This document shows, in pieces, positions 46,951 through 63,464 of a stretch of 64,000 nucleotides of DNA. Every line of letters starts with the position of its first letter. Within the stretch, counting starts at the first letter, position 1. The position numbers were made by a program, and so were the translations under genes. Below the pieces are notes generated by a model. That model saw nothing but the letters and a program-made list of their open reading frames with translations, was not told the DNA's origin and ran no database searches. This DNA is from Chelatococcus sp. YT9 (GTDB taxonomy: Bacteria; Pseudomonadota; Alphaproteobacteria; Rhizobiales; Beijerinckiaceae), in assembly GCF_018398315.1 (NCBI RefSeq), contig NZ_JAHBRW010000002.1:1534637-1598636 (forward strand), given 5' to 3'.

Positions 46951-48717
46951 TCACGCGGCGCGCAGTTCGAAGCCCGCGATTGTACTGCGCATCACGGGCG
47001 GAGCGGACCAGGCGGCGCGCAGATCCGGATTAAGTTCCGGCCAGCGCCGATCCGGGTCAGGCCATGGAATGGCCTCAACCAAGCTGCGCGTATAGGGGTG
47101 AGCGGGCTTTTCTATGACCTCGGCGGGGGGGCCGGCCTCCACGAGATGTCCTTCGTGCAGCACCAGCACATAGTCGGCGACATGATAGGCGGTCGCCAGG
47201 TCATGGGTGATATAGATCACCGAGATGCCATGAGCGGTGCGCAGCTCCTGCATATTCGCAAGGATGGACATGCGGAGGGACGCGTCGACCATCGACACGG
47301 GTTCGTCGGCGACGATCAGCTTCGGCTTCAGCAGGAGAGCGCGGGCAACCATCAGGCGCTGACGCTGACCGCCCGAGAGCTCATGCGGGAAGCGGCCGAG
47401 AATTTCGCCGGCACGCAGGCCCACGGCGGCGCAGGCTTCTTCCATCCGTGCATAAATGGCCTTCCGCCCTTGGGCGAGGCCAAAGCTGAGGAGAGGTTGC
47501 GCGAGGGTGCGATCAACCTTGTAGAACGGATTGAATGAGCCATAGGGATCCTGGAAAATCGCCTGGACGTCCCGACGATAGCGACGCGCCGCGTCACGCG
47601 AAAGCTGCGCCAGGTTGTGCCCGCGATAGAGCACAGCGCCAGCACTCGGCGTCTCGAAGCCGAGGACGAGGCGGGCCATCGTGGTCTTTCCCGAGCCCGA
47701 TTGGCCGACGACCGCCACAATGCGTGGCGCGTCGCTCTCGAGCCGAAAACTGCAAGGCGCCAGGGCCGTCTTGGGCGGGCCCGCGAAAAGACCTCCGCCG
47801 AATGTCTTGCTGACTTTCTCGAAGGCAAGCAGGGGCTCCGTCGATCGCGACGGCAAGGCACCATCCGCTCTACCATCGGGCTCCTGGCGCGCCCCAAGTG
47901 TTGGCACGCTCTCGATGAGCATGCGCGAGTAGCTGTGCCGCGGCTGGCGGAACAGGCTGCGTACTGCAGCGTCCTCGACGATCAGACCGTCCTGCATCAC
48001 GATCATGCGGTCGGCGACCTGTGCCATGAGGCCCATGTCATGACCGATGAGGATCAGGCCGCAACCCATTCGCTCCTGAACTTGCGTCAGGGTTTTCATG
48101 ACCTGGCGCTGGGTGATGACATCGAGCGCGCTCGTCGGTTCGTCGGCGATGATCAGGCTTGGCTTCAATGCAATGGCAATGGCGATGCAGGCGCGCTGCT
48201 TCATGCCCCCGGAGAGCTGATGCGGATAGCGCATGGCAACCGCTTCTGGCAGACCGACGCTCGTGAGCACCTCCGCCACAAGCGTATCCTGCGCGGCCTT
48301 CGCGAGAGGCCCGCCGTGGTCGGTCACGCCGTCCAGAATCTGCTCCCGGATGCGGAGCACCGGGTTCAGCGCATTCATCGCGCCCTGCGGAACATAGGAG
48401 ACGTGGCGTAGACGCGCCTCACGGATCGCGCGCCCTTGCAAAGACAATAGATCCATCTCGCCGAGATGCGCGGTACCGCCCGCGATGCGGCCGGGCGGCT
48501 TGATCATACGCATGAGCGCGAGCGCCGTCGTTGTCTTGCCGGAACCGGATTCGCCGACGAGCCCGACGCGTTCGCCTGCCGCGACGTCGAATGAGACGTT
48601 GCGCACGGCATGGACGACTTTCGTGGCTGTGTAGAAATCGATGCTGAGATCCCGCACGGAGAGGAGCGGAGCTTGGAGGAGGGGGGCTTGGAGGAGAGGA
48701 GCTTGTCCGGCATCCAT
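46951..48717 (-). CDS. Fused DppD-DppF-type ABC transporter ATP-binding protein
   Basis: A 588-residue protein with two complete ATPase domains. The first has GESGSGKTT, LSGGMKQR, LIIADEPTSALD; the second GQSGSGKTT, LSGGQRQR, LIVADEPVSMVD. It replaces the two separate ATPases of other Dpp systems. Unlike those it lacks the usual Cys-rich extension in the middle. The N-terminus carries three QAPLL repeats from a 15-nt tandem repeat. GGAGGG lies about 10 bp before the ATG, and the DppC-type permease gene ends 4 bp upstream. Confidence 0.9.
   Translation of the reverse strand: MDAGQAPLLQAPLLQAPLLSVRDLSIDFYTATKVVHAVRNVSFDVAAGERVGLVGESGSGKTTTALALMRMIKPPGRIAGGTAHLGEMDLLSLQGRAIREARLRHVSYVPQGAMNALNPVLRIREQILDGVTDHGGPLAKAAQDTLVAEVLTSVGLPEAVAMRYPHQLSGGMKQRACIAIAIALKPSLIIADEPTSALDVITQRQVMKTLTQVQERMGCGLILIGHDMGLMAQVADRMIVMQDGLIVEDAAVRSLFRQPRHSYSRMLIESVPTLGARQEPDGRADGALPSRSTEPLLAFEKVSKTFGGGLFAGPPKTALAPCSFRLESDAPRIVAVVGQSGSGKTTMARLVLGFETPSAGAVLYRGHNLAQLSRDAARRYRRDVQAIFQDPYGSFNPFYKVDRTLAQPLLSFGLAQGRKAIYARMEEACAAVGLRAGEILGRFPHELSGGQRQRLMVARALLLKPKLIVADEPVSMVDASLRMSILANMQELRTAHGISVIYITHDLATAYHVADYVLVLHEGHLVEAGPPAEVIEKPAHPYTRSLVEAIPWPDPDRRWPELNPDLRAAWSAPPVMRSTIAGFELRAA
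48661..48705 (-). repeat. Three 15-nt tandem repeats encoding QAPLL
   Basis: Three successive 15-nt units, each differing from the next at one to three positions, encode residues 5-19 of the fused ATPase as three QAPLL copies. They lie before the first domain, so copy number could vary without loss of function. Confidence 0.85.
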
Positions 48718-48721
48718 GGCG

Positions 48722-49630
48722 TCATGCCCTCCTTCGCAGGCGCGGATTGGCGAGTTCATCGAGGCCCGCATTGATGAGATAAAGACCGACAAAGAGAACG
48801 ATGAGGATTCCGACCGGTGGGAGGATCCACCACCACAGCCCCCGCAGGAAGGCCGAGAACTCCATGATCCAGAATATTGTCATGCCCAGCGTCGGCTCGT
48901 TCTGTGGGCCGAGACCCATCGCCTCCAGCCCGACGCTGGCGAGAATCGCGGCCGCGACCGCGGTGACAAAGGAGGAGACAAGGAAGGGCAGAAGATTGGG
49001 CGCAATCTCGAAGAAGATGATGCGCAGCGGGCCAAGGCCCGAGAGCTTCGCCATATCGACATAGCCCGATGATCGCATCACAAGCATCTGGCTGCGGACC
49101 TGCCGGGCGGGGCGGCGCCACGCGAGTGCAGCGACGATGAGTGCCATCCCGACCGAGGTGAGGCCCGTCTGCACCACGGCGGAGATCATGACGAGGAAGA
49201 GGATGGCAGGAACCGTCAGCAGCACGTCGACGCACCAGGTGATAATGCGGTCCGTCGTGCCGCCGAAATAGGCGCTGATGAAGCCGATCGCACTGCCGAC
49301 CACGACGCCGAGCCCGCCTGCGATGACGCCTGTTCGGATGGTGAGCCAGGTACCCTCGATCATCACCGCCATGAGGTTGCGGCCTTGCGGATCTGATCCA
49401 AGCGGCAAATCCGGGCCGGGTGGTGCGGCAGGCGGCGCTGAGAGGGGCGCGGCAAGCTTCACGTCCATGATGAGCCGGCCAAAAAGGGTGAAGGCACCGA
49501 GTGCAAGGATTAGCCCAAGGCCCATCACAAGGGAGGGATTGCGCAGGAGGTAGCGACCGCAGGCCAGCATCTTCCCGTGGAACGAACCCCAGTCGGCCTC
49601 TTCGGCGATCTGCACGACACGATCTGACAT
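48722..49630 (-). CDS. DppC-type ABC transporter permease
   Basis: A 302-residue permease. It has an N-terminal helix (VMGLGLILALGAFTLFG), the segment PLGSDPQGRNLMAVMIEGTW in the position of the DppC GTD-LGRD motif, and a coupling loop at MAKLSGLGPLRIIF. The C-terminal part reads LEAMGLGPQNEPTLGMTI. The motif differs from classical peptide permeases, as is common in sugar- or plant-compound-type members. It is tightly packed between its partner genes (3- and 4-bp gaps). Confidence 0.88.
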   Translation of the reverse strand: MSDRVVQIAEEADWGSFHGKMLACGRYLLRNPSLVMGLGLILALGAFTLFGRLIMDVKLAAPLSAPPAAPPGPDLPLGSDPQGRNLMAVMIEGTWLTIRTGVIAGGLGVVVGSAIGFISAYFGGTTDRIITWCVDVLLTVPAILFLVMISAVVQTGLTSVGMALIVAALAWRRPARQVRSQMLVMRSSGYVDMAKLSGLGPLRIIFFEIAPNLLPFLVSSFVTAVAAAILASVGLEAMGLGPQNEPTLGMTIFWIMEFSAFLRGLWWWILPPVGILIVLFVGLYLINAGLDELANPRLRRRA

Positions 49631-49633
49631 GGC

Positions 49634-50635
49634 TCAGGCCTCCACCCGCACGCGTGGATCGAGCAAGGGATAGATCAGGTCCACGATGAGCATCGACAGG
49701 GCGACCGTCAGCGTCAGGATGAAGACGATGCCGTATATCGTCGGGAAGTCGTAAAGCTTGATCGAGTCGAGTAACAAGGTGCCGACGCCGGGATACGCAA
49801 AGACGATCTCGACGAGAACTGCACCAGTGACAATCTGACCGAAATAGAGGGCAAGAGCAGTGACTTGCGGGAGTACCGCGTTGCGCATGCCGTAGCGCAG
49901 GAAGAGGCGGCCGGGGCGAAGGCCCTTTGCGTCGGCAAAGGTCATGTAGTCCTCGCCTTCGACCGTCACCATCATGCCGCGCATGCCGATGGCCCAGGTG
50001 CCGATCGAAGCGATGATGATGGACAGCGCAGGCAAGATGGAGTGGTACAGCACTTCCAGCGCGAAATCCCACGACCAGTCGGGAATGGAGATGATGCCGT
50101 AGCCGCCGGAGAGGGGGAACCAGCCGAGCTTGGCAGCAAAGAAGTAGATGAGTACGAGACCGATCAAATAGAACGGGATCGCCGAGAAGACCATCATGAG
50201 CGGCGACAACACCTGCAGTATGCGGCTGTCGCGCTTCCAGGCGGCAGCGGCGCCGAGCAATGTTCCGAGAATGAAGGCGATCAATGTCGTCGTGACCATC
50301 AGGCCGATCGTCCAGGGCATCGCCGCGCCGATCAGCGCTGAGACTCGCACGGGATATTGCGTGATGGACTGGCCGAAATCGAACGTGAATACATCATGGA
50401 GATAGCTCAAATACTGCTGCCAGAGTGGTTTGTCCAAGCCGAACTTGACGTTGAACGCTTCGGCCATTTCCTTGATCTTCGCCGGATCGACGCCGGATGT
50501 GCCCGCCATTTGCGTGAGCTTTTCGGCGATTGGATTCTTCGGCGCGATCCGAGGGATGAAAAAATTGATCGTGCCAGCAGCCCAAACAACGGCCAGCACC
50601 ATCACGAGACGACGCGCTATCAGGCGAAGGGGCAC
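49634..50635 (-). CDS. DppB-type ABC transporter permease
   Basis: A 333-residue permease with six membrane helices. It opens RLIARRLVMVLAVVWAAG, has FNVKFGLDKPLWQQYLSYL in the extracellular segment, the coupling loop MTFADAKGLRPGRLF and AVLVEIVFAYPGVGTLLLDS near the C-terminus. The start is GTG. It follows the binding-protein gene by 29 bp and partners the DppC-type permease. Confidence 0.9.
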   Translation of the reverse strand: MPLRLIARRLVMVLAVVWAAGTINFFIPRIAPKNPIAEKLTQMAGTSGVDPAKIKEMAEAFNVKFGLDKPLWQQYLSYLHDVFTFDFGQSITQYPVRVSALIGAAMPWTIGLMVTTTLIAFILGTLLGAAAAWKRDSRILQVLSPLMMVFSAIPFYLIGLVLIYFFAAKLGWFPLSGGYGIISIPDWSWDFALEVLYHSILPALSIIIASIGTWAIGMRGMMVTVEGEDYMTFADAKGLRPGRLFLRYGMRNAVLPQVTALALYFGQIVTGAVLVEIVFAYPGVGTLLLDSIKLYDFPTIYGIVFILTLTVALSMLIVDLIYPLLDPRVRVEA

Positions 50636-50664: not shown

Positions 50665-52425
50665 TCAGGATGCCGGCTTAAGCTTCGGCATGACATAGCC
50701 AAAGCTTCCGGACGTATACCAGAAGCTCGGCTGCATATAAGGATCCTCCTCGCTCGGCCAGCCCGTCCAGTAAGTCTGGTTCATGGGAACGCGGTGGTAC
50801 CATTCCGAAATGGGTGCCTCGACAGCTTCGCGCATCCAGATTTCCATCGCCGCTTTGACGAGATCCATCAAGCGCGGATCATTAGGCGGCACTTTTGCGG
50901 CCTCATCGACGATCTTGTCGTAATCGGCATTCGACCATCGGGCAGGCAGGAGGATCGGTTGCCCCACCGGCAGGGCATTGCGGCTGTGGTAGTTTTCCAG
51001 CGTCGCATAGGGATCGCTGATCGAGCCGCGATGGCCGAAGAGGCATAGATCGTATTTGCCGTCTCGCATGATCGCGCGGCTTTCTGGGGTGGAGCGGAAG
51101 CTCGCGTCGACCCCGGCGTTCTTCAATTGCTGGGCGACGACCGGCCCGATCGCATTCAGAACCGGGATTGCCTCAATCACGGCCGACAGCGGCTTACCGT
51201 CCTTCGCCCAGATGCCGGCATCGTTCTTCGTATAGCCCGCCTGCTGCATCAGCGCGTCGCCCTTGGCCTTGTCAAAATGGCCAATGCCGTATTTGTCCGC
51301 GATGGGGCGGATTGCGTCGATGTAGGGTTTGAGCGAGCCAAAACCGGGATAGGGATCGTATTTTGCCTCGCTCGCGCCGGCATAGGCGGTATCGATGAGT
51401 TGCTTACGGTCGAGATAATGGTTGAGAGCGCGGCGAACATTGACATCAGCCCATTTCTCGCTCTTGTGATTAAAATAGAGCGAGGTCGGCCACCAGTCCT
51501 TCGCTCCATAAGGCGAGTTCTTACCTGTAAAAGTCGTAATCTTCGGGTTCTGGGTGACGAGTTGCTTCATCACCTCACTGATCTGGATGTCGTTGACGAT
51601 ATCGACTTGGTTGGCTGCGACGAGCTGGGCCATCCGATCCCGGGTGCCGCCAGGGATCGTGATGACGCGCTCCATGGCGGGCATGGTCGCAAGGCCAGCC
51701 TTTGTCGCCCACCATTCCGGCCGCCTGTCCATGAAGATCTGATTGTCTGTGAAGCGCGTTACCTTCCACGGACCGGTGGTGAGAGGCCAGCCCTTGGCGA
51801 CGTCAAAAAAGGAGAATGCCGCCGGGTCGGATATATCGCGCCAGACATGGGCCGGCAGCCATTGCAAGCCGATATCGAAGTAGTTGATCAGATACTTGAA
51901 AGCAAAGCGCGGGTCGCCTTTGTTGAGATCGATTTTCACAGTCAGCGGGTCGAGCTTGGAAACGGCTTTCACTGCCTCGGCGACGCCGGACGATTGTGTG
52001 AGATCGCGCTTCCCCTTGCCGTTCGCCATCAGCATCTCAAGCGTATAGACGACATCATCGGCGGTGAAGGGCTTGCCGTCGCTCCAGGTGACGCCGTCAC
52101 GCAGCTTCACCGTGAACGAGGAATAGTCATCGTTGTTGTCAAGGCCAGCGGCAACCCACGGAATGACCTCATTCTTGTTGGAGTTGTAGTAAAACAGCGG
52201 CTCAAACATGTTGATGATCGAGCCGCGGAAATCTTCGTTATTGATCGAATAGGGGTTGGCTTGGCCGACGTTGCGATAGACCGGTGCCTCAGCCTGAACG
52301 GCGACGATCAGGGTCTTGTTGCGGGCAACACTGCCAGGCGCCTGGCTGAACGCGGCCTTCGGGGCGGCGACGCTCAGGGCGGCCATCGAGACGGCGAGGC
52401 TATTGAAACTCCGGCGGGTAATCAT
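50665..52425 (-). CDS. Dpp/Opp-type ABC transporter substrate-binding protein
   Basis: A 586-residue SBP_bac_5 family protein. GAGGAGGAACAGC gives a strong ribosome-binding site. The N-terminus ITRRSFNSLAVSMAALSVA is a Tat-like signal. The mature part includes NPYSINNEDFRGSIINMFEP, WSDGKPFTADDVVYTLEML and VRRALNHYLDRKQL. The genes upstream encode an SDR and an enolase-superfamily dehydratase, so a sugar acid or oligosaccharide is a better guess for the ligand than a peptide. Confidence 0.9.
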   Translation of the reverse strand: MITRRSFNSLAVSMAALSVAAPKAAFSQAPGSVARNKTLIVAVQAEAPVYRNVGQANPYSINNEDFRGSIINMFEPLFYYNSNKNEVIPWVAAGLDNNDDYSSFTVKLRDGVTWSDGKPFTADDVVYTLEMLMANGKGKRDLTQSSGVAEAVKAVSKLDPLTVKIDLNKGDPRFAFKYLINYFDIGLQWLPAHVWRDISDPAAFSFFDVAKGWPLTTGPWKVTRFTDNQIFMDRRPEWWATKAGLATMPAMERVITIPGGTRDRMAQLVAANQVDIVNDIQISEVMKQLVTQNPKITTFTGKNSPYGAKDWWPTSLYFNHKSEKWADVNVRRALNHYLDRKQLIDTAYAGASEAKYDPYPGFGSLKPYIDAIRPIADKYGIGHFDKAKGDALMQQAGYTKNDAGIWAKDGKPLSAVIEAIPVLNAIGPVVAQQLKNAGVDASFRSTPESRAIMRDGKYDLCLFGHRGSISDPYATLENYHSRNALPVGQPILLPARWSNADYDKIVDEAAKVPPNDPRLMDLVKAAMEIWMREAVEAPISEWYHRVPMNQTYWTGWPSEEDPYMQPSFWYTSGSFGYVMPKLKPAS

Positions 52426-52502: not shown

Positions 52503-53360
52503 TTACTCGGCGGCGTGCCTTCGTGAAGCGTTGGGACGCCATGGAATGTGAGCGCCGCCTGTGACCTGGATCGTCGCGCCCGTGACGAATGATGCGGCAT
52601 CAGAAGCGAGATAGAGCGCCGCCCCGACGATATCATCGGGTTGTCCCGCGCGGCCGATCGGATTGGCGGTGGCCGCAACCGCCTGCCATGCCGCCGGGTC
52701 ACGGCGGCGAAAGGCGTTGCGATCGGTCTGAACGAGGCCCGGGGCGATATTGTTGACAGTAATGCCATATGGAGCGTTCTGGACGGCGAGATTACGGACG
52801 AGATTCTCCAGCGCGCCCTTCGTCATGGCATATATAGGCATCTCGCCGGAAGGGGCCGTCTCCTGAACACTGCCGATAGTGACGACACGCCCCCAGCTTT
52901 GGTCGCGCATGAAGGGCAGGACGCCCTGAAGTATCGCGATATTTGACAGCACGTTGATCTGGAGCTGCTGCATGACATCGGCGTGGGATTGCTCAAGGAA
53001 GTCCTTGTGAATCTGGATGGACGCGCTGAGCACCAGAATGTCTATGCCCCCGAGTGAAGCGATAGCTTCTGCGGCGACCTGCTCTGCGCATCCGGGCAGC
53101 GTGAGATCTCCTTCGACAGTCGCGGCTATGCCCCCGGACTTTGCGATTTCGCCCCGCAGGCGATCCGCGGCATCGGCAAAGCCAGCGCGGTTGTCGGCCT
53201 GCGCGCAGTAATTCAGGGCGAGTCTCGCACCACATGCGGCGAAGCCACGCGCGATGGCGGCGGCGATGCCGCGGCTGGCGCCGGTCACCAGCACGCGACG
53301 GCCTGTGAGATCCGCCGTGAGAGGCATGGCCGCGGCAGAGGTGCGGATCGGAATGGTCAT
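52503..53360 (-). CDS. Short-chain dehydrogenase/reductase
   Basis: A 285-residue SDR with cofactor loop GASRGIAAAIA, a catalytic Ser in IGSVQETAPSG and the pair YAMTKGALEN; the C-terminal loop NNIAPGLVQTDRNAF fits the family. The ATG overlaps the stop of the enolase-superfamily gene (ATGA), so the two are made together. A role as a 2-keto-3-deoxy-aldonate or aldose dehydrogenase in the same pathway is inferred, not shown. Confidence 0.88.
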   Translation of the reverse strand: MTIPIRTSAAAMPLTADLTGRRVLVTGASRGIAAAIARGFAACGARLALNYCAQADNRAGFADAADRLRGEIAKSGGIAATVEGDLTLPGCAEQVAAEAIASLGGIDILVLSASIQIHKDFLEQSHADVMQQLQINVLSNIAILQGVLPFMRDQSWGRVVTIGSVQETAPSGEMPIYAMTKGALENLVRNLAVQNAPYGITVNNIAPGLVQTDRNAFRRRDPAAWQAVAATANPIGRAGQPDDIVGAALYLASDAASFVTGATIQVTGGAHIPWRPNASRRHAAE

Positions 53361-54553
53361 GCGTCACCTCCTGCGCCAGCGATGCCGGCAAGGCTTGCCG
53401 GGCGTGTCAAGTTTTGTGTCGTATGGCGCGCGAGGACCTGCCGATCAGGCTCTGTCCCGAACCCTGGCAAGGGATCGATCGCGATCACGCCTCCCGCGAT
53501 CTGGCCGGCTGCGCCGCGGATTTCATCAAAGAGCGGGCTCTCGCGCACCTGCCGTTCAAGAATGAGGAAGGAGGGGAGTGCCGCTGCCATCTGGAGGCTG
53601 ATGCGATCAAGCACCGGACCGACGGGATTGTGCAGGCTGACGGCGACACCGGATGCGGCCGCCAGTTCGAGAATTGCCAGTCCAGAGCGCAGGCCTGTCC
53701 AGCGCAGGTCCGGCAGGATGGCGTCGCATGTGCCGCGCACGAGGAAATCGCGGGCTTCGGTCATCGTCGCGAGCTGCTCGCCGCCGGCGATCCTGACCCC
53801 GCGATCATTCGCAAAGCTGCGCAACGCCCTTGCCGTTTCGCCGTCGAAGGCGTGCTCGTCAAGAGGCTCTTCGAACCAGAAGAGAGATGCCCCGTCGACG
53901 GCGCGCAGCGCCTCCCGAGCCATTACCGGTGAAAGGCGTGAGTGGCAGTCCACGAGCAGGGCCGCATCTGGCCCGATCGCTTCGCGCACGGCCTCGATCC
54001 GCGCGATGCCGTCAGCGAGCAAACGCTGGCCTGTGGCGTAGTCGGCGCGCGCCCAGTTCAGGCCATCGAACGGGGCGATCTTGACGGCCGTATAACCGTC
54101 CATCGTTACGACCTCGCGAGCGCGCGCGGCAAAGCCCGCGGGGCTGCGGTCAGCAATGCCGCGGTTGATATTGGCGTAAACGGGGATGCTCATGCGCTCG
54201 GGGCCCCCAAGGAGCGCTGCGAGCGACAGGCCCGCGCGGCGGGCGAGCGCATCAAGAACCGCCTGCTCCACCGCGCGCATGACAATTGTTCGGGCCAGGG
54301 ATGCATGCGCCACGCGCAAGCGGCCGACAATCTCCGCGGGGCCGGCGAAGCCTACCCCGAGGAGCAGCGTGTTGGCGTGGGCGATTTCCGCGAGAACGGC
54401 TTCTTCCGCGCCGGCGAGCGTCGCTTCCCCCCAGCCTGTTGTGCCCTCGGCCAGGGTCAGTTCGACGATGATCCAGTGTGTCTTCTGCGAAACTGCCACG
54501 AGGTGGGCATGCAAGGTCTGGATCACCAGCGGCTTAGCCCCGTCCATGGACAT
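53357..54553 (-). CDS. Mandelate racemase/muconate lactonizing enzyme-family dehydratase
   Basis: A 398-residue enolase-superfamily protein. The barrel motifs are visible: AVKIAPFDG (Lys on strand 2), LLVDCHSRL (first metal Asp), FWFEEPLDE (Glu), AGGEQLA (Glu), PDLRWTG (Asp) and VSLHNPVGPV (His). The His-Asp pair is the base of acid-sugar dehydratases in this family, which convert aldonates to 2-keto-3-deoxy acids. GGGGAG precedes two alternative ATGs. Its operon continues with an SDR and a Dpp-type importer and is divergent from an IclR-lactonase gene, which fits sugar acid breakdown. Confidence 0.85.
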   Translation of the reverse strand: MSMDGAKPLVIQTLHAHLVAVSQKTHWIIVELTLAEGTTGWGEATLAGAEEAVLAEIAHANTLLLGVGFAGPAEIVGRLRVAHASLARTIVMRAVEQAVLDALARRAGLSLAALLGGPERMSIPVYANINRGIADRSPAGFAARAREVVTMDGYTAVKIAPFDGLNWARADYATGQRLLADGIARIEAVREAIGPDAALLVDCHSRLSPVMAREALRAVDGASLFWFEEPLDEHAFDGETARALRSFANDRGVRIAGGEQLATMTEARDFLVRGTCDAILPDLRWTGLRSGLAILELAAASGVAVSLHNPVGPVLDRISLQMAAALPSFLILERQVRESPLFDEIRGAAGQIAGGVIAIDPLPGFGTEPDRQVLARHTTQNLTRPASLAGIAGAGGDA

Positions 54554-54580
54554 TTTCTCTCCCCGCGTGTTATTAGTTCC

Positions 54581-54623
54581 ATATCATGAGACTATTGCGA
54601 TTGATGTCAACTTGATTTCTCAT
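54581..54623. promoter_or_regulatory. AT-rich divergent control region with inverted repeats
   Basis: The 98-bp gap between the dehydratase and IclR-lactonase genes contains ATGAGA (54586-54591) inverted with TCTCAT (54618-54623). Between them lies TTGA-TG-TCAA (54601-54610). It is a natural place for the IclR domain to bind, but no specific site can be proven. Confidence 0.35.
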
Positions 54624-54651: not shown

Positions 54652-56382
54652 GTGACGGAGCCGGCAAGTGAGACGGAGCAGGACGGTGATGTCCCGGGCG
54701 CGCAAGCTTTGTTGCGGGGGCTCGATGTCTTGCTCGCCATCGGAACGGCGCCGCAGCCGCCGCGCTTCCGGGACCTCGAGAAGTCCATCGGCATCCCGCG
54801 CGCGTCATTGCATCGGCTACTGGCTGCGCTGGCCAGCAGGCGCCTGATTCGCCATGATGACCGCACGCGCACCTATCATGTCGGGATGCGCGTGCTCGAG
54901 CTTTCGCGCCGCAGCCTCGATCAGAGCGGCATCATCCGCGCTGCCAAGCCCGAACTCGCCCGTGTCGCGCGCCTGCTGCAGCGTACGATCTGCGTGATGG
55001 TTCTCGATAATGAGGACGTCTTCGTTCTCGATTTCGAGGATGCTGATCCATCCTATGGGCGTCTGGTGCGCTTCTGGCCGCGCTCACGCGCCATCGAAAG
55101 CGCGGCGGGGCGCTCCTTGCTCGCCGCCCTTCCAGAAGATCGCTGTGACGCCTTCCTCAAGGGGCTGCTATCGCAGCCGCCCCTTGAAAAAGCGGCGATG
55201 GACAGGCTACGGGCCGATCTCGGCGTAGCCAAGGCTCTCGGTTATGCGGTGATGACGCGCGAGCCGGTCTCCGGGCGAGCCGGCGCAGCATCGGCTATCC
55301 TCGACGAGACGGGTTATCCCATCGGCGCCTTGGCCTGTCTGTTCGAGACCGATCAGGTTGCTGCGGAGGACCTCCATGATGCGGGCCGTGCCCTCGTCGA
55401 GGCGGCGCGCCGCGCCTCCGGCCATATCGGGATGGGCTACGCAACGCGCCCTGTTCAGCCGCGACCGGAGAGGCAGGTTGGAAGCCAAGTGGAGGTCTTG
55501 CCAACGGGACGCGACTTCGTGGGTGAGAATCCGGTCTGGAGCCATACCCGCAGGCGCCTCTATTGGGTGGACGTGCTGGCGCCGGCGCTCCGCTGGTGGG
55601 ACCCGGCGAGGCGTGAGGCAGGACGCATGGAGCTTCCACGCTTGACAGCGGGCATTGCCTTTGACGATCAGGATCGCCTGATCGCCGCCGGTCAACATGG
55701 GTTGTTCCTGCTGGACACCGACAATGGTTCGGAGCGCCGGCTCGTCGATCCCGAGGCGGACCGTGTCGATAACCGCTGTAACACGGTCGGCGTCGACGCC
55801 AAGGGCCGGCTGTGGGTCGGGAGCATGGCCATCAATCACGAGATCGGGCGCGGTAGCCTCTATGCGGTGGAAGGAGATCTCGCCGTACACCGCCGCATCG
55901 ATAAGGTGGGGATGGCTAAGAATGTTGCCTTCGATACCAGGAGCGAGCGGCTTTACTTCGCCGATTCGGCAAACAGTGTCGTTCTTGCTTTCGACTATGA
56001 TTTGGAAAGCGGCCTGATCACGAATAGACGCGAGTTCCTGGACGCCACCGTGTTGCCGGGCAACCCGAATGGGATAACCGTAGATGCGGAGGATCATCTC
56101 TGGGTCGCGTGCCTTGGCGGCTGGCGCGTATGCCGCTATGCGCCCTCTGGCCGCCTCGCCGAGGAGATCATTCTGCCTGTCCCGATGCCGACCAACTGTG
56201 CCTTCGGCGGCGATGACCTTTCAACGCTTTACGTGACATCGACATGGATTCGCCTCCCGGCCGGTCTCTCCGCTCAAGCGCCGGCCTCCGGTCAGGTGCT
56301 CGCGATCCGCACCGGCACACGCGGCCAGCCGAGCCGGCGCTTTCGCGAAAGCGCCGTGGAGGTGCACCGCTCATCCGATTGA
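54652..56382 (+). CDS. IclR-type regulator fused to SMP-30/gluconolactonase domain
   Basis: A 576-residue fusion in one uninterrupted frame. Residues 10-90 form an IclR winged-helix DNA-binding domain (ALLRGLDVLLAIG, IPRASLHRLLAALASRRLI). Residues 95-260 form the IclR effector domain (AAGRSLLAALPE, LGYAVMTREPVSGRAGAASA). From about residue 285 it becomes an SMP-30/regucalcin beta-propeller: GENPVWSHTRRRLYWVDV, VDNRCNTVGVDAKGRLWVGS, GMAKNVAFD and GNPNGITVD with metal-ligand Asn and Asp positions. Lactonases of this family open aldonolactones. A GTG start follows GGGAGA. It is divergent from the dehydratase operon and may sense and process the same lactone. Confidence 0.88.
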   Translation: MTEPASETEQDGDVPGAQALLRGLDVLLAIGTAPQPPRFRDLEKSIGIPRASLHRLLAALASRRLIRHDDRTRTYHVGMRVLELSRRSLDQSGIIRAAKPELARVARLLQRTICVMVLDNEDVFVLDFEDADPSYGRLVRFWPRSRAIESAAGRSLLAALPEDRCDAFLKGLLSQPPLEKAAMDRLRADLGVAKALGYAVMTREPVSGRAGAASAILDETGYPIGALACLFETDQVAAEDLHDAGRALVEAARRASGHIGMGYATRPVQPRPERQVGSQVEVLPTGRDFVGENPVWSHTRRRLYWVDVLAPALRWWDPARREAGRMELPRLTAGIAFDDQDRLIAAGQHGLFLLDTDNGSERRLVDPEADRVDNRCNTVGVDAKGRLWVGSMAINHEIGRGSLYAVEGDLAVHRRIDKVGMAKNVAFDTRSERLYFADSANSVVLAFDYDLESGLITNRREFLDATVLPGNPNGITVDAEDHLWVACLGGWRVCRYAPSGRLAEEIILPVPMPTNCAFGGDDLSTLYVTSTWIRLPAGLSAQAPASGQVLAIRTGTRGQPSRRFRESAVEVHRSSD

Positions 56383-56574: not shown

Positions 56575-57621
56575 TCAGGCCAGCCGGACCGGACTATCCT
56601 GGCGTATCAGTCCGGCCGCCTTCAGCTCGTCCCAGAAGCCCATGGGGATAGGGAGCTGGATCATCTCCGCGGCCTGTTTCACTTCCTCTGGCGAGCTGAA
56701 GCCCGTGGCGACACTCGCAACGAGTGTATGTCCTAGCGCGAACTGCAGCGCGGCGGCGATCAAGGGAACGCCGTGGCGCTCACAAATAGCTTCGATGCGG
56801 CGGGTGCGGTCGAGAATGTCAGCCGGCGCGTCGGTATAGAAATATTTCGCCCCGTCGCGTGCGCCCGTTGCGAGTATCCCCGAATTGAAGGGCGCGGCCG
56901 CTATCACCGATATGCCCTCGCGCTCACATCGGGGAAACAGCGTATCGAGCGGCGTCTGTTCCAGCAGCGTGTAGCGCCCCGCGAGCATGAAGCAGTCGAA
57001 CTGTCCGGCATCGGCAAAGCGAACGAGGATGTCGCTATCGTTGACGCCGACACCGATGGCTTTCACCTGGCCGGATCGCCGCAATTCATCGAGGGCGCGG
57101 TAGCCGCCCCCCATGACTTCATCGAAGCGCCGATCGACTTCGTCTCCGTGCCATCGCCTATTCACGTCATGAATGAAGACGATGTCGAAGGCGAGGAGTC
57201 CCATGCGCTGCTGGCTGTCCTCGAGCGAGCGCATGACCCCATCATAGCTGTAGTCGAACACGACCTCGAAGGGCAGCGGATCGACATACATGCTTTGGGG
57301 CCTGACACCGCTCGCCGGCGGGCGCAGGAGCCGGCCTATCTTCGTCGAGAGAACGCACTCCTCGCGCCTGTCGCGTAGAGCGTCGCCCAGGCGACGCTCG
57401 GCGCGCCCGAGACCATAGAAGGGCGCGACGTCGAAATAGCGTAGGCCGCAATCGAGCGCCGCGGCGACGGTCTGCTCGGCCTCAGCATTGCTCAGGCTGC
57501 GATAGATGCCGCCCAAGGGCGCTGCGCCAAAGCCCAGCACCGAAATGTCGAGCCCGCTGCGACCAAGTGGCCGCGTTGGCAGCAGCCCTTCGTTCGCAGG
57601 CGATCGTGTCATGGTCATCAT
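56575..57621 (-). CDS. Aldo/keto reductase (D-threo-aldose 1-dehydrogenase-like)
   Basis: A 348-residue aldo/keto reductase with the catalytic tetrad in place: Asp and Tyr in YFDVAPFYGLG, Lys in LSTKIGR and His in FIHDVN. The opening PLGRSGLDISVLGFGAAPLG and the insertion around SMYVDPLPFEVVFDYSYDG match the subgroup that oxidises L-fucose, D-arabinose or pyridoxal at C1/C4. The ATG overlaps the preceding stop (ATGA). It is the last gene of the NitT/TauT operon. With the two nearby lactonases it suggests aldose to aldonolactone oxidation. Confidence 0.87.
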   Translation of the reverse strand: MMTMTRSPANEGLLPTRPLGRSGLDISVLGFGAAPLGGIYRSLSNAEAEQTVAAALDCGLRYFDVAPFYGLGRAERRLGDALRDRREECVLSTKIGRLLRPPASGVRPQSMYVDPLPFEVVFDYSYDGVMRSLEDSQQRMGLLAFDIVFIHDVNRRWHGDEVDRRFDEVMGGGYRALDELRRSGQVKAIGVGVNDSDILVRFADAGQFDCFMLAGRYTLLEQTPLDTLFPRCEREGISVIAAAPFNSGILATGARDGAKYFYTDAPADILDRTRRIEAICERHGVPLIAAALQFALGHTLVASVATGFSSPEEVKQAAEMIQLPIPMGFWDELKAAGLIRQDSPVRLA

Positions 57622-58520
57622 ACGCCCTGCTTCATGCGCACCGTCACGCCCGCTTTCTCCTCGCGCAGGCGCAATATTGAGGTCACGTCGAGGTCGGCAA
57701 GCCCGGAATTCTTCGCTTCCCGAAGGGTGGCATGGGCGGCGGCACCAACGGGTGTCTCGACGCCGAGGGCTTCGCCCATGGCGATGGCGAGGCGCTGATC
57801 CTTCTCGCCCAGCTTCACCATGAAACCGGCGCTGAAGTCGCCAGACAGGCCCTTTTTCGGCAGCGCAACGGCGAGCTGGTTGTTCCACGCCATCGTCGTG
57901 CGCATGACGTCGGTCATCAGCTCGAGAGAGAGCCCCGCCTTCGTGCCCATGACGAGAGCCTCGGTCGTCGCGGAGAGAATGGTCGCGGCGAGGAAATTGT
58001 TGGTCAGCTTCAGGGCCTCTCCCATGCCGAGCGCGCCGCAGTGGAAAAGGTCCGCACCCATGCAATGGAGGATGGGACGCACCCGTTCGATGGCGGCCGT
58101 GTCCCCGCCCACCATCAATGTCAAGGTGCCGGCGATCGCGTGATCGACCGTCTTGCCGACGGGGCTGTCGACCATGACGATACCTTTTGCGGCCAGTGCC
58201 GCGCCGACCCGGCGCGTCACGGCCGGGTCGATCGTGCTCATATCGATGAGGACCGAGCCCGGCTTCATCACGTGGATGAGCCCACCTTCGCCTAGGACTG
58301 CCTTTTCCACGTCGGGCCCGTCGGGCAGCATGGTGATGACGACATCGGCCCCCTCGGCGACGTCGCTGAGCGAGCGCGCCGCCTCACCGCCCGCCGCGAC
58401 ATGGGCTTCGATGGCGGCCGGATTGAGGTCGAAACCCTTGACCACATAGCCTTTGCGCAGAATGTTGCGCGCCATCGGACCGCCCATCGTGCCAAGCCCG
58501 AGAAACCCGATTCTATCCAT
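57618..58520 (-). CDS. Beta-hydroxyacid dehydrogenase (3-hydroxyisobutyrate dehydrogenase family)
   Basis: A 300-residue NAD(P)-dependent dehydrogenase. The cofactor loop is GFLGLGTMGGPMARN, the substrate motif appears as VDSPVGKTVDHA rather than DAPVSGG, and the catalytic Lys is in GEALKLTNNFL. The altered substrate motif suggests a substrate other than 3-hydroxyisobutyrate. An ATG after GAGGACAGTAAAG was chosen; a GTG at 58556 overlapping the upstream stop (GTGA) is an alternative. It lies between the binding protein and the aldo/keto reductase. Confidence 0.87.
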   Translation of the reverse strand: MDRIGFLGLGTMGGPMARNILRKGYVVKGFDLNPAAIEAHVAAGGEAARSLSDVAEGADVVITMLPDGPDVEKAVLGEGGLIHVMKPGSVLIDMSTIDPAVTRRVGAALAAKGIVMVDSPVGKTVDHAIAGTLTLMVGGDTAAIERVRPILHCMGADLFHCGALGMGEALKLTNNFLAATILSATTEALVMGTKAGLSLELMTDVMRTTMAWNNQLAVALPKKGLSGDFSAGFMVKLGEKDQRLAIAMGEALGVETPVGAAAHATLREAKNSGLADLDVTSILRLREEKAGVTVRMKQGV

Positions 58521-58552
58521 CTTTACTGTCCTCTTCGGCTCGACGCCGTTGC

Positions 58553-59776
58553 TCACTTCTTGACTGTCCAGCGCTCACGCTCCCATGTCGGGAGACCACG
58601 CAGATCGCTCGCGTCGCTTGCCGTGAAAGCGCTCATTTCCGGCTTCGAACCGGCCATCTCATAGGCTTGGCGCATCAGCGGCGCGGCCTTGCCGACATTG
58701 TCGAGCACAACACTCCATTCGAGAGGCGCCGGGATGAGCTTGCCTTCCACCATGAACTTCGATGTCTCGACGATGGCACCGACGTCCCCCTGGGTCGGCC
58801 AGATCCAGCCGCGTTTGAAGAGCACCTCGTCTCCAACCACCTTGGCGCCGAGGTCGGATGGCAGTCCCCAATATTTTTCCACGCTGTCCGATATCGCAGC
58901 CGGCGACATACCGCCGAGAGCATCAACCGCTTCCTGCATGGCTACCATGAAGGCGACCGCGAGCTTCGGATTCTGCTCAAGCAGACTGTCACGCGCCATC
59001 CAGAAGGATCGATGGAGATAATATCCATCGGGGTAGAAGGCCGACTTTTTGACCGATTCCAGGAGATGTCCAGCGCCTTCTCCGGCCGGACCCTTGTAGT
59101 GATCCTCCGTATAACCGAAGGAATTGACGATCCCGACCGTGCCCACCTCCTTCTGGGCCTTGAGAAAGGCCGGATAGATGAGGACCGCCGCATCCATGCC
59201 GCGTGGAATGGTGGCGGCCTGCGCCTGGGTCGGCGTGTTGATCATCTTGATGTCGAAGTCGCGCGGATTGCCCGACCCAAGTTCCGCGAGAATGATCTGG
59301 GAAAACGCGTTGTAGGGGTCGCCACCAAGAAGTGCGCCAACGGTCTTGCCCTTGAGATCCTGAATGTTCCGGATGTTGGAATCGGCCCGGGTCGCAACGA
59401 CGAAGCGGAAATGGCCCTCGCCCACATTGAGGACGCTCCAGGGCTGCTTGGCCGCGAGGCCACGAATGATTGGCGTGTTGCCCCACATGCCGAGGTCGAG
59501 GTTATTACTGACGAATGCTTCGACCATGGGCTGCGCAGACGGGTAGTCGCGCCAGTCGACCGTGAGGTCGTAGCCGAGCTCCTTCGCTTTCTTTTCGAAA
59601 GTCTTGTTGTTGATCATATATTGTGTTGTCGGCGAATTACCCGCGGCCCAGGGCTGACGGCCGATTGAAATCTTGGCTTCTTGCGCCCGCGCAAGGTGCG
59701 GTGCGGCGACTAGCGCCGTACCTGCGGCAGCTGCGGTGGCGATGAAGCGCCGCCGGGAAAATTGTTTCTCTGTCAT
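58553..59776 (-). CDS. NitT/TauT-type ABC transporter substrate-binding protein
   Basis: A 407-residue periplasmic binding protein with a Tat signal (QFSRRRFIATAAAAG, ending AHLARAQ). The mature part shows the family's PSAQPMVEAFVSNNLDLGM and NIQDLKGKTVGALLGGDPYN, where the second motif forms part of the ligand site. Relatives bind nitrate, taurine or sulfonates, but many ligands are unknown. Its neighbours (aldo/keto reductase, hydroxyacid dehydrogenase, LacI regulator, lactonase) point to a sugar-related or organic ligand instead. Confidence 0.9.
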   Translation of the reverse strand: MTEKQFSRRRFIATAAAAGTALVAAPHLARAQEAKISIGRQPWAAGNSPTTQYMINNKTFEKKAKELGYDLTVDWRDYPSAQPMVEAFVSNNLDLGMWGNTPIIRGLAAKQPWSVLNVGEGHFRFVVATRADSNIRNIQDLKGKTVGALLGGDPYNAFSQIILAELGSGNPRDFDIKMINTPTQAQAATIPRGMDAAVLIYPAFLKAQKEVGTVGIVNSFGYTEDHYKGPAGEGAGHLLESVKKSAFYPDGYYLHRSFWMARDSLLEQNPKLAVAFMVAMQEAVDALGGMSPAAISDSVEKYWGLPSDLGAKVVGDEVLFKRGWIWPTQGDVGAIVETSKFMVEGKLIPAPLEWSVVLDNVGKAAPLMRQAYEMAGSKPEMSAFTASDASDLRGLPTWERERWTVKK

Positions 59777-59822
59777 GCCTTGTCCCTCCCTTGTCCGCTT
59801 CGTGCGGTGTTCATTATGAAGT

Positions 59823-60656
59823 TCAGTGCCTGTCTATCGTCGCCTCATAGGCCTCATGGCGGATGAGCTGCCAGATGTCGTCCGCGAGCTTCTGGAACTC
59901 CGCTGTCGCGCGCAGGCTCTCGCGGCGAGGTCGCGGCAAATCGATCGTCATAAGCGTTTTGATATGTCCCGGATTGTTGCTCATGACCGCGACGCGGTCG
60001 GCCAGAAAGACAGCTTCATCGATGCCATGGGTAATGAAGACGACCGTCTTGCGCTTGGCGCGCGGTAAATCTTCTCCCCAGATGCGCAGCAGTTCTTCCT
60101 GAAGGATCAGGCGCGTCTGCGCATCGAGCGCGGCAAATGGCTCGTCCATGAGCAAGACTTCAGGCTCGTTCGCAAGCGCCCGCGCGAAAGCGCAGCGCTG
60201 GCGCATGCCGCCGGAGAGTTCATGCGGATACTTCGCTTCTGAGCCCGTCAGCGAGACAAGATCGATATAATGGCGCACAAGCTTGTCGCGCTCAGTTGCG
60301 GGCATCGGCGCCGACGCCCTGTAGCGCGGGCCGAATTCGATATTCTCGCGCACGGTTTTCCACGGAAAAAGCGCATAGTCCTGGAAGACCACTCCCCTTT
60401 CGGCCCCGGGCGCGCGAATGGGCTTGTCGTCCATCGTCAAGCCGCCCCGGGACGGTGCGGCGAGCCCGGCGATCATATTCAGGATCGTGCTCTTGCCACA
60501 ACCGGAGGGCCCAACGATGCACAGGAACTCGCCCTGGAAAATGTCCAGAGACACGTCGGAGATTGCGAGCGTGCGCTGGCCGGTCCGCGGCGCAATATAT
60601 TCCTTCGTGATCCCCTCAAGGCGGATCTTGGGTACCGCTAAATCTAACGCTTCCAT
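59823..60656 (-). CDS. NitT/TauT-type ABC transporter ATPase
   Basis: A 277-residue ATPase with GPSGCGKST, LSGGMRQR, VLLMDEPFAALD and switch His in FITHGIDEA, the TauB/SsuB pattern. Its 5' end overlaps the second permease by 13 bp. It drives both permeases of the operon. Confidence 0.92.
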   Translation of the reverse strand: MEALDLAVPKIRLEGITKEYIAPRTGQRTLAISDVSLDIFQGEFLCIVGPSGCGKSTILNMIAGLAAPSRGGLTMDDKPIRAPGAERGVVFQDYALFPWKTVRENIEFGPRYRASAPMPATERDKLVRHYIDLVSLTGSEAKYPHELSGGMRQRCAFARALANEPEVLLMDEPFAALDAQTRLILQEELLRIWGEDLPRAKRKTVVFITHGIDEAVFLADRVAVMSNNPGHIKTLMTIDLPRPRRESLRATAEFQKLADDIWQLIRHEAYEATIDRH

Positions 60657-61414
60657 GGGATCATCCAGTGTTCGATAGCGCGTATGCCGCGATCAATGAC
60701 CAGCGCAACCAACCCGACGCCGATCATGCAGACGATTATACCGGAGAGATCGACGCTGTAGGCGTAGAACACGAACATCATCTGGCCGATGCCGCCTGAG
60801 GAGCCTCCGCCGGCCTTTGCGCCGACGGCGAGCTCGGCGGCGATGATCGATGTCCAGGCCATGCCGAGCGCGAGCCGCGCGCCGACGAAGAGATTGGGGA
60901 GCGCGCCCGGCAGAACGATGGTTCTCAGGATCGTGGCCTTGCCGACGCCGAGCGTGCGCGCTGCCCGGATAAGCCCCTGGTCAATGCTGCGCACGCCGTG
61001 AATGGTGTTGACGAGCATCGGAAAGAAGGCCGCATAGCCGACGATGAAGGCCGCAGCTGGCGTTCCCGTGCCGAACCATAGGATGGCGAGGGGCAGCAGC
61101 GCGATGGGCGCGATTGGCCGGAAGCTCTCGACGATCGGATCAAGGTTGCGACCCACGGGCTCGAAGGCTGCCATGGCTGTTCCGAGGACGAGCGCGAGCG
61201 ATGCGGCGCAAGCGAAGCCAAGGAGAACGCGCTGCAGGCTTTGGATCATCGCAAGCGGGAGCTCACCGCTGGACAGAAGCTGCCAGCCCGTGGCGACGAC
61301 CTCGGCTGGAACCGGCATGCGGCTCGTCGAGGCGTAAGTCATGGCCGCGATCTGCCAGACAGCGAGAAGCAGTAGAGGCAGGACGAAGGGCTTGTAGCGG
61401 AGCTGGAGGTTCAC
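60644..61414 (-). CDS. NitT/TauT-type ABC transporter permease
   Basis: A 256-residue permease with six membrane helices. The cytoplasmic coupling loop is RAARTLGVGKATILRTIVLP, and PIVESFRPIAPIALLPLAIL is typical of the group. The GTG start overlaps the upstream permease stop (GTGA); longer frames upstream are not supported. It carries an unusual Gly/Ser-rich loop (GAKAGGGSSGGIGQ). Together with the other permease it forms a heterodimeric channel. Confidence 0.9.
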   Translation of the reverse strand: MNLQLRYKPFVLPLLLLAVWQIAAMTYASTSRMPVPAEVVATGWQLLSSGELPLAMIQSLQRVLLGFACAASLALVLGTAMAAFEPVGRNLDPIVESFRPIAPIALLPLAILWFGTGTPAAAFIVGYAAFFPMLVNTIHGVRSIDQGLIRAARTLGVGKATILRTIVLPGALPNLFVGARLALGMAWTSIIAAELAVGAKAGGGSSGGIGQMMFVFYAYSVDLSGIIVCMIGVGLVALVIDRGIRAIEHWMIPWKR

Positions 61415-62283
61415 GCGACAGTCCCCCCCGCCTGCGACCACGGCGTCAGCCGGCTTTGGAGGCCTCGCAACAGCCGGTCGAAGAGATAGCCGAGAAGACC
61501 GATGATGAAGACGAATGCCAATACTTTCGGAGTCATCAGCAATTCCCGGTACCACTCGATGGCGAAACCGAGCCCCGATGGCGCACCGATAAGTTCAGCA
61601 GCAACCATTGCCATCCAACCCGCGCCGGCTCCAAGCCGGGCGCCCACCAGAATATTCGGCAAGGCAGCCGGCAGAACAACGTGGCGCACGATGGAGTGCT
61701 GGTTGACGCCGAGAACCCGGGCGGCGTGGATCAGGCCGGGATTGACGGATGTGACGCCGACGACAGTATTGATGACGATGGGGAAAAAGGCGCCATAGAA
61801 CATGATTGCTGTCGGCAGAGCTTCGCCAACACCCAGAATGAACATGCCAAGCGGGATCCAGGCGATACCGGAGATCGGCCGCAGCAGCTCGATAAGGGGA
61901 TCAACGAGTTCGAAGACGGTACGATAGAGGCCCATGGCAAAGCCGAGGGCAATTCCACATATGAGCGCAAGCCCGAAGCTCACCGCGAGCCGAGATAAGC
62001 TTGCCGCTACATTGCTGAATATTTCTCCATCGGCAAAGAGTTCAAGCAAGGCCTCGAAGCTGTCGAGCGGCGAAGGCAGAAGAATAGGGTTGGCCACCCA
62101 CATCGAGCCGAGATGCCAGACCACAAGGAACACGGCCATCGAACGCAGATAGACGAGGAAGGCGCTCAGCCAGCCGAGCAAGCGCACCATTGCAGGCGAG
62201 GGCCAAGCAGCACGCGAATTGGCATAGGCGCGCATGTCCTTGGCCGCTGATGCGGCGATGCCGTTGTCTTGTCGAGCCGCCAA
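61411..62283 (-). CDS. NitT/TauT-type ABC transporter permease
   Basis: The first gene of the minus-strand operon, about 290 residues and six helices. It has the coupling loop HAARVLGVNQHSIVRHVVLP and VDPLIELLRPISGIAWIPLG. A TTG start after GGGAGGAG at 6-bp spacing is best supported; an ATG at 62337 would lie within the LacI-type operator, and an ATG at 62235 is a later option. The operon encodes two different permeases where most NitT/TauT systems have one. Confidence 0.88.
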   Translation of the reverse strand: MAARQDNGIAASAAKDMRAYANSRAAWPSPAMVRLLGWLSAFLVYLRSMAVFLVVWHLGSMWVANPILLPSPLDSFEALLELFADGEIFSNVAASLSRLAVSFGLALICGIALGFAMGLYRTVFELVDPLIELLRPISGIAWIPLGMFILGVGEALPTAIMFYGAFFPIVINTVVGVTSVNPGLIHAARVLGVNQHSIVRHVVLPAALPNILVGARLGAGAGWMAMVAAELIGAPSGLGFAIEWYRELLMTPKVLAFVFIIGLLGYLFDRLLRGLQSRLTPWSQAGGTVA

Positions 62284-62405: not shown

Positions 62406-63464
62406 ATGAAGCGCGCCGGCATTCGCGATGTGGCGCGGCTCGCAGGGGTCGCGCCGATGACCGTTTCGCGCGCCATCTCCTTTCCGCATCTCGTGTCTGA
62501 AGAAACGCGCAAGAAGATCTCGGTTGCCATCGCGGCGACCGGCTATATTCCGAACCGCGTGGCGAGCAGCCTGTCGTCAAACCAGACGATGACCATCGGC
62601 GCGGTTATTCCAACCCTGCGCAACTCGATCGCTGCCGATTTCGCCGACGGTTTCGGCCATGTTCTCAAGGCGCGCGGTTATCATCTGCTCCTCGGCAACA
62701 GCGAATTCGCACCGAAGGATGAAGAGACCATCGTCGCTGAATTCCTCGCCCGGCGGGTTGACGGCATCTATCTGACAGGCGCGACCCATACCACCAGGAC
62801 CCGCAAGATGCTGCGGGACAATGCGATTCCGACAGTTGAGATCGCGATCCTGCCGCAGGATCCCATCGATATGGCCGTCGGCTTCTCAAATTTCGACGCA
62901 ACCTATGACGTCACCCGCATGTTGGCCGAGCAAGGTTACCGTAAGGTGGCGCTCTTCACGACCTTCACGAAGGACAATGAGCGGCAGAGCGAGCGACAGG
63001 CAGGATACCGTGCTGCGGTGCGCGATTGCGGGCTCGATCTTGATCCCGGCTTAGTCGTGGAATTGGAGATGAGCCTGAAGGCGGGTGGCCGCGAACTGCG
63101 CGCACTGATCGATCGGCGGCCGGACGTCGAGGCGCTGTTTTGCACCGGTGACTATATCGCCGCGGGCGCGCTGTTTGAGGCGCAGCGTCTCGGCATTCGC
63201 GTGCCGGAGGACCTCGCCCTCGCCGGTTTCGAGGGTTTGGAAATCGCCGAAAATCTCAATCCGTCGCTCACGACGGTGCGGATCCCGCGTTTCGAGATCG
63301 GCGCTCGTGCCGCCACAATGCTGCTCGACCGTGTGGCCGGGTTGCCGGTCGAACAGCGCGTCGTCGACATGGGATTCGAGATCATCAGGCGTGGCTCGAC
63401 GGCTGCAACCGGCCGGAACGCGCCGGCTGTGGCCAAGAAGAAGGCGAGGGGAAAAGCAACGTGA
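62406..63464 (+). CDS. LacI-family transcriptional regulator
   Basis: A 352-residue regulator. The N-terminal helix-turn-helix is IRDVARLAGVAPMTVSRAI, followed by a hinge helix VASSLSSNQT and a periplasmic-binding-protein-like ligand domain (VDGIYLTGATH, FCTGDYIAAGALFEA, DLALAGFEGLEIAE). Such proteins bind sugars or sugar acids and release a palindromic operator. The ATG chosen has AGGGCG nearby; one 33 bp upstream is also possible. It is divergent from the NitT/TauT operon, with the operator between, and overlaps a lactonase gene downstream by 4 bp (GTGA). Confidence 0.9.
   Translation: MKRAGIRDVARLAGVAPMTVSRAISFPHLVSEETRKKISVAIAATGYIPNRVASSLSSNQTMTIGAVIPTLRNSIAADFADGFGHVLKARGYHLLLGNSEFAPKDEETIVAEFLARRVDGIYLTGATHTTRTRKMLRDNAIPTVEIAILPQDPIDMAVGFSNFDATYDVTRMLAEQGYRKVALFTTFTKDNERQSERQAGYRAAVRDCGLDLDPGLVVELEMSLKAGGRELRALIDRRPDVEALFCTGDYIAAGALFEAQRLGIRVPEDLALAGFEGLEIAENLNPSLTTVRIPRFEIGARAATMLLDRVAGLPVEQRVVDMGFEIIRRGSTAATGRNAPAVAKKKARGKAT

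Follow-up and report, generated by a model that had tools for sequence, protein, structure and literature searches.

An IclR-family regulator of Chelatococcus sp. YT9 with a C-terminal SMP-30 lactonase fold that may have become a ligand-sensing domain

The fusion gene described here, located in a 64,000-nucleotide stretch of the Chelatococcus sp. YT9 genome (the window, at its full length), probably encodes an IclR-family regulator in which a C-terminal SMP-30 lactonase fold has been turned into a non-catalytic ligand-sensing domain, a reading of the sequence to which we assign a probability of roughly 0.6. Since the metal centre of the propeller is mostly replaced and the domain is nevertheless still conserved, the propeller is more likely a sensor than an enzyme. 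A wider proposal, offered tentatively and at well short of even odds, is that IclR-SGL fusions form a natural enzyme-to-sensor series, in which the metal site was lost several times independently and, in the clade of the window's protein, the sensing role passed from the older pocket of the IclR part to that of the lactonase, which holds no metal and in which a lysine takes the place of the metal ion. The features on which the analysis was based are listed in Table 1.

Table 1. Genes, domains, pocket residues and candidate regulatory sites in and at the end of the window
Feature	Position	Strand	Details
Importer ATPase with two stretches each of ABC_tran and oligo_HPY	46951..48792	-	
Importer permease, dppC-like	48722..49630	-	
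Importer permease, dppB-like	49634..50635	-	Pfam, NCBIfam
Family-5 solute-binding protein, dipeptide-type ABC importer	50665..52425	-	Pfam
SDR dehydrogenase	52503..53360	-	Pfam
MR/MLE (mandelate-racemase/muconate-lactonizing) sugar-acid dehydratase-like gene	53357..54553	-	PF13378/PF02746
Candidate operator GTTCCATATCATGAGAC	54576..54592	.	Sole genomic match to GTTCCANANNATGNNAC
Sigma-70-like promoter TTGACA-16-CATGAT, towards dehydratase operon	54583..54610	-	1 found vs 0.5 expected by chance
IclR-SGL fusion gene	54652..56382	+	Single 576-aa open frame from a GTG start to the stop at 56382
HTH_IclR (helix-turn-helix), residues 19-69	54706..54858	+	PF09339, 42.4 bits (cut-off 22)
IclR_C effector-type domain, residues 88-256	54913..55419	+	PF01614, 41.7 bits (cut-off 24)
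SGL beta-propeller, residues 290-531	55519..56244	+	PF08450, 224 bits (cut-off 26.3)
Glu292, Glu18 equivalent, kept	55525..55527	+	Alignment
Arg375 and Asn377 (Arg101/Asn103 equivalents, kept), Thr378 (Asp104 equivalent, lost)	55774..55785	+	Alignment; roles from the accessible part of PMC3551927
Lys423, replacing metal ligand Asn154	55918..55920	+	Alignments
Asn473, replacing metal ligand/proposed catalytic base Asp204	56068..56070	+	Alignments
Solo SGL lactonase, intact triad	63440-64000, continuing in L095 98-958		Followed by a galactarate/altronate-dehydratase-like gene past the window end

The first-pass annotation had described an IclR helix-turn-helix and effector domain followed in frame by a lactonase domain, and both this architecture and its coordinates proved correct, as evidenced by the Pfam matches within a single 576-aa frame. 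HTH_IclR and IclR_C are both present above their Pfam cut-offs, which places the protein in the IclR family, and the SGL match spans profile positions 1–245 of 246; the relationship to regucalcin was evident with phmmer (1.7e-34). When the reading frame was checked in related genomes, the in-frame fusion recurred in the same-genus genomes G003 (95% identity) and G001 (86%), and more distantly in G934 (58%) and on a plasmid of Sulfitobacter mediterraneus (43%). A Chelatococcus asaccharovorans contig also carries it in frame with 86% identity and is probably the G001 copy. This recurrence ruled out an assembly error or a split gene.

According to the accessible portion of PMC3551927, the metal ligands of SMP-30 are Glu18, Asn154 and Asp204, and the substrate contacts are Arg101, Asn103 and Glu121; Asp204 is put forward there as a possible catalytic base, Asp104 touches the metal in one human complex, and mutagenesis cited in the same portion indicated that the metal and Asn103 are critical. 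Alignment of the window's protein with regucalcin placed Glu292, Lys423 and Asn473 at the positions of Glu18, Asn154 and Asp204, so that only the first of the three metal ligands is retained. Judged by its sequence as an SMP-30/gluconolactonase enzyme, the protein has the SGL propeller domain and lacks the Glu18/Asn154/Asp204 metal triad. The nearest solved relatives by sequence are SMP-30/regucalcin (PDB 3g4e and 4gn7) and the SMP-30/Cgr1 family protein 7plb. Like regucalcin, the window's protein possesses an SGL domain with the equivalents of Glu18, Arg101 and Asn103; unlike regucalcin, it has replaced the equivalents of Asn154, Asp204 and Asp104, and it is fused to a regulator. The clade of the window's protein comprises the fusions of three same-genus genomes, G934, Sulfitobacter and G953 (support 100/99 in the fusion tree). 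Lys stands at the Asn154 place in all six clade members found, at pairwise identities of 31–95%, and Asp is absent from both the 204 and the 104 places in 6/6, with the Arg101 equivalent kept in six and the Asn103 equivalent in five. Asn occupies the Asn154 place in 31/31 intact fusions and 17/17 stand-alone lactonases.

A one-residue register error, by which Asn424 would be the ligand, was considered and rejected: the HMMER alignment against regucalcin is gap-free between the lid loop and the Asp204 equivalent, and separately built MAFFT alignments likewise put Lys at the Asn154 place. A backbone shift might escape a comparison made at the sequence level. The two replacements, Asn to Lys and Asp to Asn, may be compatible with another metal site or chemistry.

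The dN/dS ratios (Nei-Gojobori) of the SGL domain were 0.041 against G003 and 0.102 against G001, far below 1, demonstrating that the domain is under purifying selection and not decaying freely; the corresponding values of the IclR part were 0.027 and 0.066. The IclR_C scores of the six clade members were 41.7, 46.1, 39.6, 45.3, 27.7 and 63.2 bits (Pfam), as compared with 73.5–161.3 bits in 17 intact fusions and 94.5–138.7 bits in seven decayed fusions outside the clade; these scores cover 17 of the 31 intact fusions with L074 left out, and the Pfam scan of L061 was made from the annotated start, which excludes the HTH. In the Sulfitobacter orthologue the IclR_C match extends over profile positions 4–78 of 174 only. 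Four residues of the IclR part found in nearly all intact fusions, namely Tyr125 (30/31), Arg129 (27/31), Gly142 (31/31) and Arg196 (31/31), are each replaced in five or six of the six clade members. The low IclR_C scores and the replaced residues led us to propose that sensing has shifted to the propeller in the window's clade, and the proposal is restricted to this clade, because the seven other decayed fusions score ordinarily for IclR_C. Even here, IclR_C might still act as the effector site.

The strongest of the competing explanations, albeit an unlikely one, regards the propeller as a structural or oligomerization module and leaves the sensing of the ligand to IclR_C alone. It would agree with an IclR_C domain that lies above the Pfam cut-off in 6/6 clade members and with dN/dS values that are lower for the IclR part than for the SGL domain. 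However, the same IclR_C is weak-scoring throughout the clade and only partly matched in Sulfitobacter, and a purely structural propeller sits poorly with a polar pocket that has been kept (Arg375 in 6/6, Asn377 in 5/6) and in which Lys423 is fixed.

The fusion was confirmed to be divergent from a dehydratase operon, as had been noted from the sequence, by the Pfam labels of the minus-strand neighbours; the start-to-start gap between the fusion and the dehydratase-like gene is 98 bp. The top NCBIfam model for the latter gene is gluconate/galactonate dehydratase, at 143.5 bits well under the cut-off of 750. It is the presumed target of the fusion regulator, and the SDR gene is presumed to share its operon. 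In Sulfitobacter, too, the orthologue is divergent from an MR/MLE-SDR-SBP5-permease-ATPase gene set, and an intact solo SGL lies immediately behind the fusion. Overall, an MR/MLE gene was found at five of the six clade loci, with none at L089 within the stretch read. The region behind the importer genes (window 43196–46745) encodes a family-2 glycosyltransferase and contains an 827-aa frame whose only match, to DUF7024, is below the cut-off.

Within the gap, the pattern GTTCCANANNATGNNAC gave one match in the 6.74-Mb genome and its reversed control gave 0, bearing in mind that the pattern was derived from the loci where it was subsequently found. It recurs upstream of the orthologues in G003 and in Sulfitobacter, the Sulfitobacter copy being the near-palindromic TGTTCCACAATATGGAACA; an exact match is absent at three of the six clade members (G001, which has an imperfect version, L089 and L094). 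The predicted -10 element of the promoter directed towards the dehydratase operon falls inside the candidate operator, the promoter match alone being near chance level, and a candidate operator that covers this -10 element fits repression.

An intact solo SGL is located approximately 7 kb from the fusion at all three same-genus loci. The one at the window may serve another pathway, because of this distance and because a galactarate-dehydratase-like gene follows it. The solo SGL of G953 lies 5.6 kb from the fusion; in G934 none was detected within the 20 kb read around the fusion, and there are 13 SGL places genome-wide. At window 57618–61555, a 3-hydroxyisobutyrate-dehydrogenase-like gene stands beside an SsuA/Tau-type ABC importer, and this region may represent a sulfonate or sugar-acid pathway. 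The nearest model for the former gene is sulfolactaldehyde 3-reductase, under the cut-off; this match, together with sulfatases near L056 and L094, was judged insufficient to claim a sulfonate or sulfosugar pathway. Genes for a beta-keto-acid cleavage enzyme (BKACE) were observed near two clade members (L089 8034–9020 and L094 13446–14552) and may hint at a keto-acid ligand.

Less probable again than a structural module is a pocket with new, metal-free chemistry, for example an imine formed by Lys423 with a 2-keto sugar acid, which would make the propeller an enzyme or a covalent sensor. The lysine is invariant in 6/6 members despite pairwise identity down to 31%, the products of the MR/MLE genes at five of the six loci would be 2-keto-3-deoxy acids, and the BKACE genes at L089 and L094 point in the same direction. 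Set against this, the potential acid/base residues Asp104 and Asp204 are lost in the same clade, and we know of no relative with metal-free (imine-type) chemistry in the SMP-30 fold.

To place the window's protein among its relatives, 44 distinct fusions were read, a non-random sample that began with the window's relatives and was enlarged by a kin search for two decayed members. The set omits earlier loci including L012 and L017 (of the intact group; the same fusions were reread as L112 and L113) as well as three fusions with identical cores, and L104, annotated with IclR_C, fell below the SGL score threshold used. The metal triad is kept in 31 of the 44, and the other 13 have lost at least one ligand: four are without Asp204 only (one of them carries Asn there), five are without two ligands and four are without all three. 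Among stand-alone SGLs, 17/17 keep the triad. In four same-genus genomes, for which 30 of 37 SGL places were read, the triad is kept in all 21 solos, even divergent ones (six of these overlap the 17-solo set), and in four of nine fusions, which make up one orthologue group; the five decayed fusions are the window's group in three genomes plus one extra each in G003 and G001. Within the sample read, triad loss is confined to fusions. The window's own genome harbors a second IclR-SGL fusion, L067, which is 38% identical and has an intact metal triad.

The gene surroundings were compared by best BLAST hit at 26 intact-fusion loci, and revealed MR/MLE genes at 24, SDR genes at 25, DHDPS-family genes at 23, an ABC sugar-binding protein at 24 and 2-keto-3-deoxygalactonate kinase at 13. 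A nearby solo SGL was found for 6/13 decayed fusions (three of which are one orthologue group) vs 0/26 intact fusions judged, in a tally that omits the short loci L038–L040, L075 and L083; since no solo SGL is nearby in 26/26, the fused lactonase could itself serve the pathway at the intact loci. The fusion is inside an operon in 1/12 decayed vs 17/27 intact cases judged, and outside in 11/12 vs 10/27, with L075, L077, L078, L083 and L088 omitted. Both sets of labels were set by hand, a divergent lactonase under the score threshold would be missed, and neither a nearby solo SGL nor operon position was significantly associated with triad loss once relatedness was counted (4 independent pairs).

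These comparisons bear on the idea, put forward in the first-pass annotation, that the fused lactonase consumes the regulator's own inducer, so that the inducer drops as the lactone is opened by an active enzyme fused to a repressor. That annotation had itself named loss of the lactonase ligand residues as the observation that would speak against it, and such a loss is what the alignments revealed: the metal ligand Asn154 is replaced by Lys423, the metal ligand and proposed catalytic base Asp204 by Asn473, and Asp104 by Thr378, all three original residues being absent across the clade, and the 21 solo paralogues read in four genomes all keep their triad. We therefore find the idea unsupported and consider an active lactonase improbable in the window's protein, in spite of the correctly described architecture, the retention of Glu292, Arg375 and Asn377, the triad-bearing majority of sister fusions (31/44, with an MR/MLE gene at 24/26 such loci read) and the precedent of an active ArsR-methyltransferase fusion in the part of PMC10190100 that is accessible. 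For the sister fusions with an intact triad, L067 included, the active-enzyme version is possible. An error of sequencing or annotation, or a gene remnant in decay, either of which only the ligand loss would suggest, can be dismissed given the in-frame fusion in several genomes and a propeller dN/dS far below 1.

The IclR-SGL architecture is real and sparse, and in this sample belongs mainly to Alphaproteobacteria. With the own genome counted each time, matches were found in 4/4 genomes of the genus and 8/60 relatives, and in at least 16/397 genomes at the level of the order, at least 6/385 of the class (one with the SGL only) and at least 3/398 of the phylum, the last three counts being lower bounds because only the best three candidates per genome were scored. 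Among plasmids, 139 of 686 matching records span at least 80% of the query, and the best 40 matches are mostly from Sinorhizobium, with Roseibium/Labrenzia.

On an unrooted tree of the fusions, from which the trait columns were excluded, triad loss needs four changes, and four are forced by well-supported branches; the Asp204 position changes four times and the Asn154 position twice. The root was not inferred, and the changes are read as losses rather than gains because every solo and both references read are intact. A tree of the SGL domain recovered the window's clade (support 99/93) and fits a single origin of the fusion (one change, in 92% of bootstrap trees, at a weak branch support of 93/14). 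The nearest relatives of the clade differ between the two trees, being the L054/L067 group in the fusion tree vs L079/L090 in the SGL-domain tree.

If the propeller is indeed a non-catalytic sensor, the system could operate as follows: (i) the fusion protein would bind the candidate site at 54576–54592 and repress the divergent dehydratase-SDR-importer operon, (ii) the propeller would bind one of the pathway's sugar lactones or sugar acids, (iii) by homology to regucalcin, the ammonium group of Lys423 would take the place of the metal cation in the pocket, and (iv) ligand binding would lift repression, with the ligand not consumed. The ancestor was probably an active lactonase-regulator fusion encoded with its catabolic genes, as are most sister fusions read. 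Loss of catalysis may then have yielded a steadier sensor, with lactone hydrolysis, where needed, left to separate SGL enzymes.

Enzyme-derived effector domains are an accepted feature of transcription regulators. The closest precedent identified, BzdR, as described in the accessible portion of PMC3602430, combines an HTH-XRE domain with a shikimate-kinase-like effector domain, an enzyme fold that became the effector domain; a catalytically dead chimera answered the inducer in vivo and an active one did not, the paper regards the loss of enzyme activity as important to the inducer response, and the path was rebuilt with synthetic chimeras. As far as this portion allows a comparison, the window's protein resembles BzdR in that an enzyme fold with replaced catalytic residues is joined to a DNA-binding domain and maintained by purifying selection. 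It differs in its fold, and in that a complete IclR regulator precedes the SGL, whereas the enzyme fold of BzdR is the effector domain itself; moreover, intact and decayed IclR-SGL fusions are both natural, in contrast to the synthetic BzdR chimeras. By analogy, the window's protein may work like BzdR, but it is not a member of the BzdR subfamily, its domain being SGL and not shikimate kinase-related. The logic of BzdR, on this partial account, is opposite to that of an inducer-consuming device, because an active enzyme spoils the signal. That other kind of device, a regulator with an enzyme acting on its signal, is represented by ArsRM of Brevundimonas sp. M20, an ArsR-methyltransferase fusion for which the accessible part of PMC10190100 reports both DNA binding and enzyme activity; unlike ArsRM, which belongs to other families and has an active enzyme, the window's protein has its metal site replaced.

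Closer to hand, the intact-triad fusions of Agrobacterium, Chelatococcus daeguensis, Labrenzia and Terrarubrum, which are annotated under the lactonase name, have the same domain order as the window's protein, a similar length and MR/MLE genes nearby; what sets the intact-triad fusions apart is a full metal triad, a stronger IclR_C and, by hand scoring, the location inside an operon in 17 of the 27 judged. Ordinary IclR regulators (the BhcR, PcaR/PcaU and KdgR models) share the order of HTH and IclR_C with the window's protein, but these models have 248–267 positions and no propeller, and the window's protein scores far under their cut-offs (BhcR, 80.9 of 350 bits). A literature search returned no title on an IclR-SGL fusion; its coverage excluded most subscription papers, which leaves absence unproven.

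Within one family, fusions with an intact triad stand beside catabolic genes and decayed ones lie mostly outside the operon (11/12, judged by hand), and an intact (L067) and a decayed fusion (that of the window) coexist in one genome. Since intact and decayed fusions both occur naturally, the order of fusing, losing catalysis and shifting sensing becomes testable on natural proteins. A caution applies to naming: many records, among them many plasmid records, name the fusions by the lactonase alone, as 'SMP-30/gluconolactonase/LRE family protein', and 13 of the 44 fusions are without at least one metal ligand. Two fusions carried by plasmids, L059 (7914–9563) of Sinorhizobium americanum and L061 (7899–9557) of Bradyrhizobium, have all three metal ligands gone and are split off by a long, fully supported branch. 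In L093 (9094–10929), Asp204 alone is replaced, by Gly, in a fusion within an otherwise canonical catabolic operon, and this fusion is a possible intermediate step of the loss.
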